Translations under genes and position numbers: made by a program
Source of the DNA: Hydrotalea sp.
GTDB lineage: Bacteria; Bacteroidota; Bacteroidia; Chitinophagales; Chitinophagaceae
Direction: 5' to 3'
Assembly (NCBI GenBank): GCA_027364735.1
Contig: DAHXOT010000033.1
Span: 62,001 to 126,000, forward strand
DNA: 64,000 nucleotides
The notes under the pieces: generated by a model
Told to the model about the DNA's origin: nothing
Seen by the model: only the letters and a program-made list of their open reading frames with translations
Databases searched by the model: none
Shown here: piece by piece, positions 34,001 to 40,956 of the stretch
How positions within the stretch are numbered: position 1 is the stretch's first letter
How the letters are laid out: each line of letters begins with the position of its first letter

Positions 34001-34879
34001 TTAAGAAAGTTCCTCATAAAGACTTTGTATCAGGCCATCGGCTAAGCCAATTTTTGGAACATATATTTCAGGAATATCGGCCCAACGCATAACGTTAATG
34101 TAAATTTGTAAAGCCGGTACAATAACATCGGCACGGTCTTCTCTTAGTTTATAAGTTCTAATTCTTTCTTCTAACGAAACACTCGATAATTCTTTGTAAT
34201 AATCTTTTAATAATTCTATAGATAATGGTTTTCCTTCTTTCTTTTTACTAAGCGAGAACACTTTATTGATATTACCGCCACTGCCAATAGCTATAATGGG
34301 TAAATTACTTTTGGTATTTCTTTTTAAGTGTTCTTTCATATCATTCCAAGTGTTTTCTTCTACTTGCGATTTTAGTAGGCGTATGGTACCAATATTAAAA
34401 GATTCTTTATAACGCAATATACCATCGGCAAAAAAGGTAAGTTCGGTACTGCCTCCACCAACATCAATATATAAATAGGAGTGGGCTTTATCCAAATTTT
34501 CGGCGATATGATTTTCATAAATAACAGAAGCTTCTTCATCTCCACTAATAATTTTAATTTCTATTCCCGTTTCAAACTTTACTTTTCTTATAATATCGGC
34601 ACTATTTATTGCATCACGCATAGCACTTGTAGCACAAGCTTTTATATGTTCAACTTCATACACTTTTAATAAATGCTGATAAGCCTTCATTGTTTGCAAA
34701 ATCATTCCTCGTTTTTGTTTTGATATTTCGCCATATTCAAAAACATCAAACCCTAAACGTAAAGGAACTCTAACCAAATTAAGTTTATTAAATTGGGGTT
34801 TGCCTTCTTTACCATTTATCACTTCGGTAATTAATAATCTTGCGGCATTACTTCCAATATCAATTGCTGCTAATCGCAC
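34001..34879 (-). CDS. Ppx/GppA family phosphatase (exopolyphosphatase-like)
   Basis: This ASKHA-fold enzyme hydrolyses polyphosphate or pppGpp. The phosphate-1 loop 'AAIDIGSNAARLLI' and the phosphate-2 loop 'YIDVGGGSTELTFF' are both visible, with 'GSGGNINKVF' after them. The 292-residue length matches the short two-domain Ppx form. Its start overlaps the end of ppk1 by 20 bases, so the two are co-expressed and probably translationally coupled. Ppx is preferred over GppA because of this context. Confidence 0.92.
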   Translation of the reverse strand: MRLAAIDIGSNAARLLITEVINGKEGKPQFNKLNLVRVPLRLGFDVFEYGEISKQKRGMILQTMKAYQHLLKVYEVEHIKACATSAMRDAINSADIIRKVKFETGIEIKIISGDEEASVIYENHIAENLDKAHSYLYIDVGGGSTELTFFADGILRYKESFNIGTIRLLKSQVEENTWNDMKEHLKRNTKSNLPIIAIGSGGNINKVFSLSKKKEGKPLSIELLKDYYKELSSVSLEERIRTYKLREDRADVIVPALQIYINVMRWADIPEIYVPKIGLADGLIQSLYEELS

Positions 34880-36953
34880 TTTGCTTTAAAGTTTTTTGAT
34901 ATAGATATTGATACGTTTCAATTTGAGAACGTATTTTTCTTTTGCCTGCGGAAGGTACATAGTTATTACTAAGTTCACTATCCAATATTCTTGCTTTTAC
35001 GGTATCTCTTAATTGAATGTGGATAATCTCTTTTAGTTCTCGAATGATAGTAGTATCTTTTATTGGAACTGCTGCTTCTAAGCGGTGATCGAGGTTTCTT
35101 ACCATCCAATCGGCAGAGGATATAAACACTTTTTCTTTTCCTCCATTTTGAAATATCATTACCCTTGCATGCTCTAAATATTCATCTACAATACTAATGG
35201 CAGTAATGGGTGATGCAAATTTTTTATTGTCAATTTTAGCACAAAATATTCCTCGTATAATTAGTTTTATCTCAACACCATAAGTAGCTGCTTCGTACAG
35301 TTTTGTTATTAAATATTGATCGCTGAGAGAATTTGATTTTAAAATGATACTTGCTGCAATACCTTGTTTGGCATTTTTTATTTCTTTATTAATTAGTATT
35401 TCTATTTGTTTTCGCATGGCATTAGGACTAACCATTAGTGTTTTACAATTATGTAAATGATGAACTCCATTTTGCCAATTTTGTAAATAATTAAATATGC
35501 GATTAATATCGGCCATTACATTTCTGTTGGCTGTAAGTAAGCAATGATCGGCATAAACTTTTGCAGTTTTTTCATTTAAGTTTCCTGTGCTTACAAATCC
35601 GTATTGAATTGTTTTATGTTTAATTCTTTTTTTAATGATGCAGAGTTTGGCATGAATTTTCATTTTTGGAATTCCTAATAAAACCTTTATTCCTTCTTCT
35701 TCTAATATTTCTTTCCATTCTAAATTGGCTTCTTCATCAAACCTTGCTTTTAGTTCAAGCATTACAATTACTTCTTTCCCATTTCGTGCGGCATTAATTA
35801 AAGCATTAATAATTTTTGAAAAAGGAGCTAAGCGATATGCAGTTATTTTTATGGAAGTAACATCCGGATCAATGGCAGCTTCTCTTAATAAATCGATAAG
35901 CGGATTAAATGAATGATAAGGAAAATGAAGCATTACATCTTGTTTCAAGATTACATCAGTAACTCTAATAACGTGTTGTAAAGCAGGATGCACAAAAGGT
36001 TGGCGGCGCGTTACTTTTTGAGGGATAATATTGGGGAAATCCATAAAATGCCTAAAATTATGGATACGGCCTCCGGGGATAATATTGCTTCTTTTTGTAA
36101 GGTTTAATTTGCGTATTAAATACTCGAGTAATCCCGAATCCATTTCTTTATCATAAACAAATCGAACAGGTTTTCCTTTGCGTCTGTTTTTTAATCCTTT
36201 TTCTATTTTCTCAACAAAAGTGGTCGATATGTCGCTATCCATATCCAACTCTGCATCTTTGGTAACTTTAAAAATATGTGCATCAAAATAATCGTAGCCG
36301 AAATAGGAAAAAATGTAGGGTAAATTAAAACGAATAACATCTTCTAATAAAATAATGGAATGTTCGCCAGGCTTTGATGGTAATTCAACAAAACGCCCTA
36401 TTGCTTTTGCGGGCACTTCAATTAACGAATATTTTTGTTCGTAAGCCGAATCTTTTTTTCGCATTACTACGCCTAAGTAAATACTTTTATCGCGTAAATA
36501 AGGAAGTTGTGTTAAGCTTTCAATCATCAATGGAATTACATTTCTTCTTACCTCTTCATTAAAAAAATTGCGTACAAATTTTTGTTGTTCTTTATTTAAA
36601 TGTTTCTCATCAACTAAAAATATTTTTTCTTTTTTTAATTCTTTTAAAATGCCATCCCATATACGGTTAAATTCATTTTGTTGTTGCAGAACAATTGTTT
36701 GAATAGTATCAAGAATTTTTTGAGGATCTTCCTCCATATACATATTCAATTTTTTTCTTTTTTCCGAAAACTCAATCATTCGTTTTAGTGTAGCTACTCT
36801 AACCCGAAAAAATTCATCACTGTTATTCGAAAAAATTCCTAAAAACCGAATTCTTTGATTTAAGGGAACCGAGCTGTCATTTGCTTCTTGTAAAACTCTG
36901 GCATTAAAACTTAACCAACTTACATCTCTTTGTATAAATAATTTTTTAGGCAT
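34860..36953 (-). CDS. ppk1: Polyphosphate kinase 1
   Basis: PPK1 reversibly makes polyphosphate from ATP at the inner membrane. The N-terminal domain starts 'RDVSWLSFNARVLQEA'. The two catalytic histidines are seen in 'PKMKIHAKLCII' and 'VDEYLEHARVMIF', the sites that align with His435 and His592 of E. coli. 'STGNLNEKTAKVYADH' and 'IIRGIFCAK' are also typical. At 697 residues it is full length. Ppx follows, overlapping. A clear -7 element lies 18 bases upstream. Confidence 0.96.
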   Translation of the reverse strand: MPKKLFIQRDVSWLSFNARVLQEANDSSVPLNQRIRFLGIFSNNSDEFFRVRVATLKRMIEFSEKRKKLNMYMEEDPQKILDTIQTIVLQQQNEFNRIWDGILKELKKEKIFLVDEKHLNKEQQKFVRNFFNEEVRRNVIPLMIESLTQLPYLRDKSIYLGVVMRKKDSAYEQKYSLIEVPAKAIGRFVELPSKPGEHSIILLEDVIRFNLPYIFSYFGYDYFDAHIFKVTKDAELDMDSDISTTFVEKIEKGLKNRRKGKPVRFVYDKEMDSGLLEYLIRKLNLTKRSNIIPGGRIHNFRHFMDFPNIIPQKVTRRQPFVHPALQHVIRVTDVILKQDVMLHFPYHSFNPLIDLLREAAIDPDVTSIKITAYRLAPFSKIINALINAARNGKEVIVMLELKARFDEEANLEWKEILEEEGIKVLLGIPKMKIHAKLCIIKKRIKHKTIQYGFVSTGNLNEKTAKVYADHCLLTANRNVMADINRIFNYLQNWQNGVHHLHNCKTLMVSPNAMRKQIEILINKEIKNAKQGIAASIILKSNSLSDQYLITKLYEAATYGVEIKLIIRGIFCAKIDNKKFASPITAISIVDEYLEHARVMIFQNGGKEKVFISSADWMVRNLDHRLEAAVPIKDTTIIRELKEIIHIQLRDTVKARILDSELSNNYVPSAGKRKIRSQIETYQYLYQKTLKQSAISSN

Positions 36954-37070: not shown

Positions 37071-37565
37071 TTATTGTGTGCTTTTTATTTTCTCTACCAA
37101 ATTTGTTGTAGAAAATCCTTGAACGATAGGGTTGATAATAACATTTCCACCATTGGCAATTACTTCTTTGGCTCCAACAATTTGTTCAATAGTATAATCT
37201 CCACCTTTTACTAAAACATCGGGAAGTATTGATGTGATAAGTTGATAAGGAGTATCTTCTTCAAAAATAATCACAGCATCTACCATAATTAATGATGCTA
37301 TAATTAGTGCTCGGCTTTTTTCGTTATTAATGGGTCTTTCATTTCCTTTTAATCTTTTGGTACTTGCATCGCTGTTTAAGCCTACAATTAAGTAATCGGC
37401 TTCTTTTGCTGCTTGCGATAAAGAAAAAATATGTCCTTCATGAATAATATCAAAACATCCATTCGTAAATGCAATTTTTTTATTAAGCAGTTGCCATCCT
37501 GTTATTACATGTAATAGGGTAGGGAGTGTAAAAATTTTTTTTTCAATTGCTTCAATTCTTTTCAT
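37071..37565 (-). CDS. rfaE2: D-glycero-beta-D-manno-heptose 1-phosphate adenylyltransferase
   Basis: RfaE2/HldE-C transfers AMP to heptose-1-phosphate to make ADP-heptose for LPS core. The nucleotidyltransferase motif HxGH is present in 'TNGCFDIIHEGHIFSL', with 'VGLNSDASTKRLKG' and 'DVLVKGGDYTIEQIVGA' characteristic of this enzyme. At 164 residues it is the stand-alone domain, without the fused kinase found in E. coli HldE. It follows the UPF0104 gene by 26 bases, so they form a short operon. Confidence 0.95.
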   Translation of the reverse strand: MKRIEAIEKKIFTLPTLLHVITGWQLLNKKIAFTNGCFDIIHEGHIFSLSQAAKEADYLIVGLNSDASTKRLKGNERPINNEKSRALIIASLIMVDAVIIFEEDTPYQLITSILPDVLVKGGDYTIEQIVGAKEVIANGGNVIINPIVQGFSTTNLVEKIKSTQ

Positions 37566-37591: not shown

Positions 37592-38602
37592 TTAATTTTT
37601 AAGTTTTATTGATTTATTATACCAAGGTAAAATGCTCATACAAAAAAATCCAACAATTACTACAATTAAAAATTGAGCAAACCATTGTAGCGTTCCATTG
37701 GCATATCCAATTTCAAAAGGAATATTATTTTTTTCTAACACTTTAGCTAAAAAATAAGCGTATGCTCCAATACCTCCAGGTGTAATAATCATTCCAATAC
37801 TTGCAAATGCCAATGCCGACAAGGCTTGTATAAAACCCAAACCGGCTGTTCCTTCAGTTGCATATAATCCTACCCAAGTTCCTGTAATATACATACTCCA
37901 AATACCAATGGTATATAAAATAAATAAACCCTTTTGTTGCAATTTTAAAACACTGATTAAGCCTTCCCAAATGCCTTTTAAAATTTTTTTAATTGCAATA
38001 ACAATTTTTAAATGCGAAAATTGATTAAACCATATTTTGATTACAACAAACAAAAAGCCGATAATAATTAATACAATAAAAATTTTAGTGGTAGAAAAAT
38101 GTCCATTTTTATTTTTAAACAACTGAGTAAATATTTGCATGGTATATTCTCCCACAACCTCATATTGCGTAATAAAAGCCAATAAAAATATTATACCGAG
38201 TGATATTACATCAATAGCTCTTTCAACTACAATTGTTCCAACTAATTTTTCGGCTGGCACTTTTTCGTATTTGGCAAGAATGGTACATTTTAAAACTTCT
38301 CCTAATCTTGGTACTGCTAAATTTGCTAAGTAGCCAATCATTACTGCAAAAAATGTATTTAATAACGAAGGGTAATAACCCATAGGTTGCATTAATATTC
38401 TCCAACGTAAACTTCTTAAAATATGGCTAAAGCTTAAAATAAAAAAAACAGGAATTATAAGCCAATATTTTGCACTTTTAAGCGAAAACAAAAATTCGTT
38501 CCATTTATTATTGGGTATTTGGTGTAAACTCCACCAAACTAAAAACACACCTAATCCAAAAAAGAAAATATATTGAAGAAATGAAATTGTTTTTTTATTC
38601 AT
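37592..38602 (-). CDS. UPF0104/lysylphosphatidylglycerol-synthase-TM family membrane protein
   Basis: This is a polytopic inner-membrane protein with about eight hydrophobic segments. It resembles the flippase-like domain found in MprF and in AglD-like proteins: 'LRSLRWRILMQPMGY', 'NLAVPRLGEVLKCTILAKYEKVP' (read in parts) and 'GTIVVERAIDVISLG' are typical. There is no C-terminal aminoacyltransferase domain, so it cannot lysylate lipids. I start at ATG 38602. The cargo of this stand-alone family is unknown; the rfaE2 neighbour hints at lipid or LPS traffic. Confidence 0.85.
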   Translation of the reverse strand: MNKKTISFLQYIFFFGLGVFLVWWSLHQIPNNKWNEFLFSLKSAKYWLIIPVFFILSFSHILRSLRWRILMQPMGYYPSLLNTFFAVMIGYLANLAVPRLGEVLKCTILAKYEKVPAEKLVGTIVVERAIDVISLGIIFLLAFITQYEVVGEYTMQIFTQLFKNKNGHFSTTKIFIVLIIIGFLFVVIKIWFNQFSHLKIVIAIKKILKGIWEGLISVLKLQQKGLFILYTIGIWSMYITGTWVGLYATEGTAGLGFIQALSALAFASIGMIITPGGIGAYAYFLAKVLEKNNIPFEIGYANGTLQWFAQFLIVVIVGFFCMSILPWYNKSIKLKN

Positions 38603-38755
38603 AATAATAAGCTTCGGCAATAACTGCAAGTTAATGTACAATCTATTACTAACAAGTATAATACTTTTTTGCTAAATGGGTTTGGCAAATTGTATGCTAT
38701 TTATAAAACATATACTCTGTTACAATGCTTTTTTGTTTTTTATATAAATTTTAGA

Positions 38756-38788
38756 TTGATGATTTTTGTTTTAATTTCTGTAAATTTG
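38756..38788 (+). promoter_or_regulatory. Promoter of the glycogen-synthase-like gene
   Basis: TTG at 38756-38758 and TAAATTTG at 38781-38788 are separated by 22 bases, close to the -33/-7 arrangement of Bacteroidota promoters. The start codon is 27 bases downstream. Confidence 0.5.
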
Positions 38789-38815: not shown

Positions 38816-39628
38816 ATGTCAAAGAAAAGAATCTTATTCATAGCCACCGAAATGTCGCCATACTTAGAGCTAACTGAGTTTGCAGAGATTGTAAATAAAT
38901 TAGCAATCAAAAGTAACGACAGTGGATTGGAAGTACGTTGTATAATGCCTCGATTTGGAGTTATTAATGAAAGAAGGCATCGGCTACACGAAGTTGTTCG
39001 GTTATCGGGTATTAATGTATCGGTTGATAACGATGATTATCCTCTTCAAATTAAAGTAGCTTCTTTGCCCAATGCTCGATTACAAGTTTATTTTTTAGAA
39101 AACGAAGACTTTTTTAAACGGAAGCATATCTTTCATGATGAATCGGAAAATTGGTTCGATGATAATGGATTAAGAACTATTTTTTTCTGTAAAGGAGCAT
39201 TAGAAACAGTTAAAAAATTTGGTTGGCCTCCCGATATTATTCACTGCAGTGGATGGATGACAGGTTTAATTCCGGCATATATTAAAACGGCGTACAAACG
39301 CGAAGCAGTTTTTAGTAATAGTAAAGTAATTTTCACTATTGGTCAAAATACTTTTAAAGAAAAATTAGGTGCCGATTTTGTAAAAAAAGCAATAATCAAT
39401 GCCAATATTAAAGACAAAGATTTAGAAGTTTTTAAAGATCACAACAATACAGCCTTATTTAAAGGAGGTGCTGCTTATGCCGATGCTATTAGTTTTGGAG
39501 CCGAAAAAGTAGAGAAAAAACTTGCCGACGAATTTGCTAAAATAAAAGGGAAAAAAGTAGTACCATTTAAAGGATGGGAATCAGATTTAACCGAGTACAT
39601 TGATTTGTACAATGAGTTATCTAAATAA
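38816..39628 (+). CDS. Short glycogen/starch-synthase N-terminal domain protein (probable non-catalytic)
   Basis: The protein resembles only the N-terminal half of GT5 glycogen synthase: 'RILFIATEMSPYLELTEFAEIV', 'CIMPRFGVIN', 'WPPDIIHCSGWMTGLIPAYIK' and 'KVIFTIGQNTFKEKL'. It ends at 270 residues, before the sugar-nucleotide-binding Rossmann half. The KTGGL motif that binds ADP-glucose after 'SEVAPF..' is replaced by 'YLELTEFA', so starch synthesis is unlikely. I start at ATG 38816, not the GTG before it. metK follows after 74 bases. The role is unknown. Confidence 0.8.
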   Translation: MSKKRILFIATEMSPYLELTEFAEIVNKLAIKSNDSGLEVRCIMPRFGVINERRHRLHEVVRLSGINVSVDNDDYPLQIKVASLPNARLQVYFLENEDFFKRKHIFHDESENWFDDNGLRTIFFCKGALETVKKFGWPPDIIHCSGWMTGLIPAYIKTAYKREAVFSNSKVIFTIGQNTFKEKLGADFVKKAIINANIKDKDLEVFKDHNNTALFKGGAAYADAISFGAEKVEKKLADEFAKIKGKKVVPFKGWESDLTEYIDLYNELSK

Positions 39629-39702: not shown

Positions 39703-40956
39703 ATGCCTTATTTATTTACTTCCGAAAGTGTATCTGAAGGTCATCCAGATAAAGTAGCCGATCAAATTTCTGATGCCTTAATCGATAATTTTTTAGCATT
39801 CGATGCTCAATCTAAAGTGGCTTGCGAAACATTAGTTACTACTGGTCAAGTAATTCTTGCAGGTGAAGTAAAATCTAAAGCATATTTAGATGTTCAAGAA
39901 ATAGCTCGTGGGGTTATTCGCAAAATTGGATATACCAAAAGCGAATACATGTTCGAAGCGAATAGTTGTGGAATTTTATCGGCCATTCACGAACAATCTG
40001 CCGATATCAATCAAGGGGTAGATAAAAAGAAAAAAGAAGAACAAGGTGCAGGAGATCAGGGAATGATGTTTGGTTATGCCAGTAACGAAACAGAAGATTA
40101 TATGCCATTAGCATTAGACTTAGCACATAAAATATTAATTGAATTAGCGGTATTGAGAAGAGAAAATAAACAAATTAAATATTTACGCCCCGATGCTAAA
40201 AGTCAGGTTACTTTAGAATACGATGATAATAATAAACCGGTAAGAATTGATGCAATAGTTGTATCAACCCAACACGATGATTTTGATACAGAACAAAAAA
40301 TGCAAGCCAAAATTAAAAAAGATATTATCGAAATTTTAATTCCTCGTGTTAAGGCAAAATATAAAAAATATGCGAAGCTGTTTAATAATAATATTAAATA
40401 TCATATCAATCCAACAGGTAAGTTTGTAATTGGCGGCCCACATGGCGATACTGGATTAACAGGACGTAAAATAATTGTAGATACTTACGGTGGTAAAGGA
40501 GCTCATGGCGGCGGTGCGTTTAGTGGAAAAGATCCTTCAAAAGTTGATAGATCTGCAGCGTATGCAACACGCCATATTGCTAAAAATCTTGTAGCAGCAG
40601 GCATTGCAGATGAAGTATTGGTGCAAGTTTCTTATGCAATAGGTGTTGCTCAGCCTACTTCAATCAATGTAAATACTTATGGTACGGCTAAGGTTGATTT
40701 AAACGATGGAGAAATAGGTAAATTGATAGCATCTATATTCGATATGCGTCCTTACTTTATTGAGCAACGTTTAAAATTACGTAATCCTATTTATAGTGAA
40801 ACTGCGGCTTATGGGCACATGGGACGTAAAAATGAAATTGTAGAAAAAACATTCACATCTCCCGATAGTAAAACAAAAAAAGTAAAAGTTGAATTATTTA
40901 CTTGGGAAAAATTAGATTATGTTTCAAAAGTTAAAAAAGCTTTTGGAATAAAATAA
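39703..40956 (+). CDS. metK: S-adenosylmethionine synthetase
   Basis: MetK makes S-adenosylmethionine from methionine and ATP. Diagnostic segments: '[20 protein letters not shown]' with His14, '[12 protein letters not shown]', and the P-loop-like '[19 protein letters not shown]'. The 417-residue length is longer than the 384 of E. coli, as in other Bacteroidota. It ends at a strong hairpin shared with the converging tRNA-Leu gene. I see no SAM riboswitch upstream. Confidence 0.97.

Follow-up and report, generated by a model that had tools for sequence, protein, structure and literature searches.

At the locus lies an open reading frame for a half-length GT5 protein, hereafter half-GT5, followed on the same strand by metK (Table 1). 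The window is the whole 64,000-nucleotide stretch of Hydrotalea sp. DNA that was analysed. A GTG codon three bases upstream of the ATG offers an alternative start that would give 271 residues. On the other side, a flippase-like gene and a stand-alone heptose-1-phosphate adenylyltransferase gene run leftwards, and farther left (window 34001–36953) we noted by eye overlapping, leftward exopolyphosphatase-like (Ppx/GppA type) and polyphosphate kinase-like genes. Half-GT5 would stay in the cytosol, as we saw by eye no signal peptide or lipoprotein signal. A frameshift or assembly artefact was rejected: the same-genus copy is 100% identical (rounded) over 270 residues at a dS of 0.17. The original prediction credited the gene with a good promoter of its own. 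A match to TTG-N22-TAAATTTG, which we take to be the Bacteroidota-type promoter motif, is present upstream, but 12% (597/4,975) of shuffled versions of the 180 upstream bases contain such a match too, and the promoter evidence is therefore weaker than was claimed.

Table 1 Features of the half-GT5 locus, in window coordinates
Feature	Position	Strand	Basis and remarks
Stand-alone heptose-1-phosphate adenylyltransferase (HldE domain II)	37071..37565	-	TIGR02199, 192 bits (cut-off 181.5)
Flippase-like membrane protein (PF03706), divergent	37592..38641	-	Profile match
Possible Bacteroidota-type promoter, TTG-N22-TAAATTTG	38756..38788	+	Pattern scan, weak
Half-length GT5 protein, including stop	38816..39628	+	PF08323 match; ATG start, 270 aa
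ELTEF (residues 18–22), in the place of the KTGGL donor motif	38867..38881	+	Alignment with KTGG-bearing full-length relatives
Family signature RRHRLHEVVRLSG (residues 53–65)	38972..39010	+	R53, L57, H58, E59, V60, R62 and L63 invariant in 53/53 short copies
Second signature KVAS (residues 80–83)	39053..39064	+	53/53 short copies
metK	39703..40956	+	TIGR01034

To define what the protein retains of the enzyme, we compared it with domain and whole-enzyme models. Residues 5–226 align to positions 1–214 of 239 of the Glyco_transf_5 profile (Pfam PF08323, E 1.5e-47) and no C-terminal domain is present, which bears out the claim that this is only the N-terminal GT5 half. Whole-enzyme models are matched over their first half only, with scores far under the NCBIfam cut-offs: 126 against 328 bits for TIGR02095 (glgA), and 170 against 754 bits for the best match, NF010698, presumably the Chlorobium-type starch synthase model PRK14098. 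The C-terminal domain, with the donor site and EPCGL, is absent from the 270 residues, and tblastn with three C-terminal halves found none in the window. An AF2 model built from 35 sequences reached moderate confidence (pLDDT 74, pTM 0.81), with pLDDT below 50 at residues 13–20 and 49–55, in the donor loop and at the start of the signature. Its best Foldseek match was 6gne_B (Arabidopsis SSIV, starch synthase IV; E 1.6e-12), and a VIA comparison aligned 249 residues to this chain with Z 22.7 and rmsd 3.2. Comparison with GT5 N-domains, proposed originally as a check, thus returned that fold for the predicted structure.

We next asked which residues the family has lost and which it has kept. 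The alignment held 174 proteins, 164 of 252–278 residues and 10 of 491–499; filtering of the 164 short copies, 158 of them distinct, to less than 75% identity left 53, and L002 and L112 were excluded as duplicate or partial. In known enzymes, ADP-glucose is contacted through the KTGG and THN motifs. In the window protein the KTGGL-type motif is replaced, as predicted, with ELTE in the place of KTGG, and THN reads TIGQ. Among the 53 short copies, the lysine of KTGG occurs in two and its first and last glycine in none (0/53 each), and THN keeps its histidine in 7 and its asparagine in 15. In the full-length relatives that belong neither to classical GlgA nor to family f32, KTG is present in 20/20 and the last glycine in 19/20.

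The full-length GT5 proteins of f32 (L183 and L184, 488 aa) carry RVSS for KTGG in the donor loop and EACGM as the C-terminal motif, and have no adjoining DUF4270. L183 passes NF010698 'starch synthase' with 884 bits (cut-off 754), most f32 genomes have one GT5 match and, going by the NF010698 model, f32 would be Chlorobiaceae. As these full-length proteins also lack KTGG, its loss alone is no proof of inactivity, and the absence of the C-terminal domain argues for it more strongly.

Across the 53 short copies, 26 positions are invariant, mostly around RxxxLHEVxRL (53–63), KVAS (80–83), QVYF (90–93) and DNxxR (116–120). In 20 full-length relatives the residues of the first signature are largely present (R53 and H58 in 19/20, R62 and L63 in 20/20), with E59 in only 9/20; in classical GlgA such signature residues are found in 1–3 of 7. 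A82 and S83 occur in 0/20 full-length relatives and in 1/7 and 0/7 classical GlgA, respectively, and S83 was seen in the short clade only. Overall, the 26 invariant columns agree with the short forms in 80% of cells in the 20 full-length relatives and in 40% in the 7 classical GlgA; at the 227 other columns the corresponding figures, measured against the short consensus, are 31% and 21%. These values indicate that most of the retained set came down from one particular full-length lineage, and by the same alignment A82 and S83 became fixed later than the rest of it.

The neighbourhood of the gene was examined in relatives near and distant. That it is placed just before metK is true in the window but in a minority of relatives: among 79 close-relative loci with a downstream reading frame, metK stands at +1 in 20 and DUF4270 in 58 (median gap to half-GT5 10 nt), and neighbour clustering found metK adjoining in 0 of 36 distant loci. 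The clustering covered 171 of 176 loci, leaving out L160, L161, L167 and L178 (focal reading frame unrecovered) and L017 (2.7 kb). The metK neighbourhood is therefore not conserved and we rejected metK as a functional clue; it is an accidental neighbour, which adjoins half-GT5 in the window because the DUF4270/bamH-like gene is absent at the locus. The composite order from close relatives is HldE domain, flippase, panD and panC leftwards, and half-GT5, DUF4270 and metK rightwards, with panC, or panD and panC, between the flippase and half-GT5 genes in many of them. Records of Bacteroides finegoldii, Prevotella nigrescens and Parabacteroides distasonis, which are chromosome-like pieces in a plasmid collection, read panD, panC, 'glycogen/starch synthase', DUF4270, the third being the name that all three annotations give to half-GT5.

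By coordinates, 64 of the 73 Bacteroidia genomes sampled have DUF4270 within 1.5 kb downstream and on the strand of half-GT5; in 7 it lies elsewhere, and 2 gave no profile match. These counts rest on PF14092, and 64/73 is a lower bound because clustering places a DUF4270-like reading frame downstream in G085 and G214 (L049, L053), the two scored as lacking it. In many loci with a short copy outside the class, the genes that come next encode a DUF4270-like lipoprotein, a barrel-like protein and a TPR protein. Many full-length, motif-intact GT5 genes are succeeded by those for a HAD phosphatase, then a DUF4270-like lipoprotein and a protein of this barrel family; L154, L162, L177, L183 and L184 are exceptions. 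The lipoproteins beside GT5 outside the class are homologous to Bacteroidia DUF4270, with hhalign probabilities of 96.6–99.5% overall (DUF-to-control pairs <1%; highest control pair 2.5%) and of 96.6–99.1% for those beside full-length GT5, which covered 15 of the 20 loci with an 'operon-type' full-length GT5, a set grouped by the tree.

To trace the origin of the short form, we built a tree of N-domains (84 rows). The 53 short copies formed one clade with support 100/100. Two further short proteins, L181 and L182 (f53; 286 and 288 aa, with KTGS and KTSA), were placed elsewhere, with the full-length L178, L190 and L191 (support 99/69, not starred). Forcing all short forms together (53 plus the two of f53) was rejected with p-AU 0.0134, which is moderate evidence, given the long branches and a grouping that was defined once a first tree was in hand. 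Given this rejection and the separate placement of f53, the C-terminal domain was probably lost twice, separately. The f53 proteins are apparently an independent half-length GT5 in the same type of neighbourhood that has kept KTG or KTS, possibly an intermediate stage.

We also looked for a separate full-length glgA in the window genome, and found one on contig C24 (471 aa, 449 bits for TIGR02095), the contig that carries glgC and glgB above cut-off. Its product groups with classical GlgA, which by eye adjoins glgC in L187, L188 and L189, and apart from the short clade. Descent of half-GT5 from the resident glycogen enzyme was therefore rejected, as was a recent copy of it.

The recurrent DUF4270 neighbour gave a link to outer-membrane assembly. 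An AF2 model of one linked DUF4270 protein (pLDDT 80) had three structural matches at E <0.001, namely 9n2d_C, 9hjm_G and 9his_G (E 3.1e-22 to 1.1e-16), all from Bacteroidota BAM complexes, and 9hjm_G was also found by sequence (E 1e-9). On this modelled structure and sequence, DUF4270 is BamH-like. The available text of two 2025 papers describes BamH (Fjoh_0823 or Bt4306) as a surface lipoprotein that is essential in F. johnsoniae and important, but not essential, in B. thetaiotaomicron. It also names a paralogue, BamH2 (Bt1786), listed as DUF4270 in a further paper as far as its text was available, and BamG, a FadL homologue in B. thetaiotaomicron. The F. johnsoniae BAM complex is given there as BamA and five named proteins, with half-GT5 not among them in the text available (PMC12611786). 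The fjoh_0824 promoter was used in the F. johnsoniae BAM paper, in the part available; by its number this gene stands beside bamH, and by gene order it is probably the half-GT5 gene. That half-GT5 usually precedes bamH suggests that it is transcribed together with outer-membrane assembly.

Half-GT5 could then serve BamH specifically, as a helper or regulator that acts in the cytosol or at the export stage and is needed to make or place this subunit. The close spacing and the 64/73 linkage favour this, as does the extension of the pairing to full-length GT5 lineages. We nevertheless consider it unlikely, as 7 of the 73 genomes keep half-GT5 with DUF4270 elsewhere and the genome of the window shows no such linkage. 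Its sole DUF4270 match lies on contig C49 (458 aa) and is most like the unlinked type: 10 of 11 unlinked paralogues fetched outscore every linked one against it (100–306 against at most 89 bits), the exception being L210 with 80 bits. It adjoins a 415-aa barrel-like (FadL-like) protein, as do, by eye, 9 of 12 unlinked copies, and the pair resembles the BamG2–BamH2 pair of B. thetaiotaomicron as described in the text available. We note that this region of the window genome (G000; L213, 1771–4399), with a BamH2-like DUF4270, a barrel-like protein and no GT5-linked DUF4270, looks as if a BAM subunit had given way to its paralogue. The half-GT5 gene remains under strong selection in the window lineage though the linked DUF4270 is absent. 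Half-GT5 is thus not simply a BamH helper, since it persists where bamH has gone. The operon may be a matter of shared transcription alone, because the GT5-linked DUF4270 is absent both here and in a genome of 490 kb.

That genome, G351, is a single symbiont-like contig of 489,825 bases at 93% completeness (21% GC in L217), in which we saw by eye cell-wall and amino-acid genes (L217–L242). Its half-GT5 has 262 residues (PF08323 E 3.1e-33) and 37% identity to the window protein, and lies, by eye, between eno-like and gyrB-like genes. It keeps 21 of the 26 invariant residues, KVAS included; E59, V91, D116, R120 and H143, invariant elsewhere, are changed. Searches of G351 at E up to 1, with profiles built for this analysis, returned no DUF4270, BamH2, barrel, GlgC or GlgB, and no GlmS, PanC, MetK, HldE domain or flippase, and two Bacteroidales GH57 queries had no match. 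As positive controls, the half-GT5 profile (1.2e-68) and the GlyA and RpiB queries succeeded. Some BamA-like function may persist, because a shortened POTRA protein remains.

Another possibility is an accessory role in glycogen synthesis, in which half-GT5, like plant SS5, would bind glucan or the resident synthase and aid granule start. SS5 is likewise GT5-derived and nonenzymatic, and is bound by MRC, according to the text available (PMC10801857). The window genome has glgA, glgC and glgB, and the B. finegoldii and P. distasonis loci adjoin alpha-glucan genes. We regard this role as distinctly improbable all the same. Eleven of 73 Bacteroidia genomes have no GT5 match other than half-GT5, and in five of these (G054, G066, G077, G081 and G320) GlgB and GlgC both stay under their cut-offs and phosphorylase has no match; their best GlgB score is 94 bits against 464. 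GlgB is present in 4 of the 11. GlgC scores peak at 58 bits across all 11, whereas the cut-off is 425, a strict one in that a likely GlgC of G005 falls just below it with 418. The markers tested were GlgB, GlgC and phosphorylase, with GH57 added in G351, and 'glycogen-free' means free of these; the five genomes may still code for a GT3 synthase or a GH57 branching enzyme. In addition, the queries used found no GlgC, GlgB or GH57 in G351, KTGG and THN are lost, and neither glgC nor glgB adjoins half-GT5 in the loci examined.

In two Bacteroidales loci (L201, 7086–9774; L203, 6853–9789), the half-GT5/DUF4270 pair faces an alpha-glucan-like cluster with an alpha-amylase or GH57 and a glycosyltransferase, joined in L203 by a debranching enzyme. 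The B. thetaiotaomicron gene BT_4307, by gene order a member of the family, has been taken as a sign of possible glycogen storage in the available text of one study (PMC10797578), an inference that looks unsafe.

Half-GT5 might also be one half of a split glycosyltransferase, an acceptor domain for a separately encoded GT1-type donor domain. GT-B half-domains could in principle pair, and many of the invariant residues are polar. Searches for a C-terminal GT1 half in 105 loci (≥6 kb), the window and the two f53 loci found none, apart from a single weak match in L142 (20% identity, E 2e-4) 3.6 kb from the half-GT5 gene. A split gene with an adjoining second half was therefore rejected and, as KTGG and THN are also gone, we think a split enzyme very unlikely. 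With the whole C-terminal donor domain missing and no split second half adjoining, the original claim that the protein is non-catalytic becomes very probable on the sequences compared.

We give still less weight to a cobamide-binding protein tied to methionine metabolism, which would be highly improbable. BT_4307, a 'putative glycogen synthase' that by gene number adjoins BamH Bt4306, was among 16 proteins significantly captured by a B12 photo-probe in both screens, with log2 values of 2.61 and 1.05, as the available text reports without taking the protein up further (PMC8941943). Yet several of the captured proteins have no known B12 link and labelling may be unspecific, BT_4307 was assigned to the family by gene order, and G351 has no MetK match.

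Lastly, we measured how widely the gene is spread and how strongly it is constrained. The window protein had a match in 36 of 39 relatives and in 294 of 296 genomes of the phylum, a count that includes full-length enzymes. For the class, which from its named relatives would be Bacteroidia, 236 of 247 genomes had a match, and 214 of 216 at ≥90% completeness, all with E 6e-45 or better; the class-wide figure counts matches, with open frames of 269–397 aa among the matches listed. Only G412 and G442 lacked one among the 216, which was confirmed at E 0.1; they are assemblies of 410 and 300 contigs, and genus-mates in the same set carry half-GT5. The gene is thus an old family, contrary to the idea of a new, local gene. 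dN/dS was 0.009 against the same-genus copy and 0.029–0.044 against three further relatives, dS being saturated for the five others (four of nine window comparisons usable). Across 59 pairs of relatives with dS 0.1–1.2, the median was 0.015 and the maximum 0.067. Purifying selection on half-GT5 is strong. There were no internal stops among the matches listed, and the relaxed selection and broken frames of a pseudogene were not seen. That the gene is no product of random decay, as first proposed, is supported both by selection and by spread. A decaying, functionless remnant is scarcely credible: the C-terminal half and the catalytic motifs are missing and a review, in its available text, speaks of a conserved 'fragment' (PMC11046441), but dN/dS of 0.009–0.044 in the unsaturated window comparisons, 26 invariant residues over 53 diverse copies and retention in 490 kb speak against it.

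Half-GT5 is, as its sequence indicates, a GT5-derived pseudoenzyme in kind: a lone GT5 domain that has lost its donor motifs and is kept under selection. On balance, we lean towards a non-catalytic GT-B half-domain, derived from a full-length GT5 of an old envelope operon, that binds a partner or ligand in a core process. Its ancestor would have been a full-length GT5 synthase in an operon of GT5, HAD phosphatase, DUF4270/BamH-like lipoprotein and FadL-like barrel. At the base of the short clade, the protein would have shed its C-terminal donor-binding domain and its donor loop would have decayed, and a charged-rich set of N-domain residues (R41, R53, H58, E59, R62, K80, S83, Q90, W137 and others) would have become fixed. 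The present protein would make no bond and would bind a partner or small ligand through its invariant residues, presumably in a core growth or envelope process.

Being near-universal, almost unchanged and often beside an outer-membrane gene, half-GT5 probably does an undiscovered basic job. More tentatively, it may be a near-universal and probably essential housekeeping protein of Bacteroidota, the acceptor half of an ADP-glucose glycosyltransferase turned non-enzymatic growth or envelope adaptor. Its lineage would have been halved at least twice in a BAM-linked neighbourhood and kept in a 490-kb genome after loss of the linked BAM subunit and the tested glycogen genes; we hold this fuller account to be a serious possibility. 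The protein is a good candidate for a missing core function in a group that includes major gut, oral and soil bacteria, and its place before bamH makes the link to outer-membrane assembly directly testable with published F. johnsoniae depletion tools.

Part of this was already on record. A single sentence of a review states that Bacteroidetes keep a GlgA-GT5 'fragment', very probably the half-GT5 family, and its available text gives no neighbourhood, conserved residues or function (PMC11046441). In the available text of the literature searched, we found nothing on the BAM-linked neighbourhood, the double truncation, the invariant residues or retention in a reduced genome, and no discussion of a role for the half-protein. 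BamH, the usual downstream neighbour, is a surface lipoprotein, whereas half-GT5 shows no lipoprotein signal by eye and is unnamed among the BAM subunits in the text available. With GlgA (TIGR02095) and NF010698 it has the N-terminal Rossmann domain in common, and with a particular full-length set the RLHxVxRL region; unlike GlgA, it is without the C-terminal domain, KTGG, THN and EPCGL and scores far under the cut-offs.

Plant SS5 likewise consists of GT5 alone, without the second domain. SS5 acts in starch granule initiation, whereas the bacterial protein is also found in genomes without the glycogen markers tested. The two are probably of independent origin; SS5 is not among the 84 rows of the tree. 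Described in the available text as a noncanonical, nonenzymatic starch synthase (PMC10801857, PMC9578351), SS5 is, like half-GT5, GT5-derived and, as half-GT5 very probably is too, without activity, and so provides a precedent for a non-enzymatic relative of the starch synthases.
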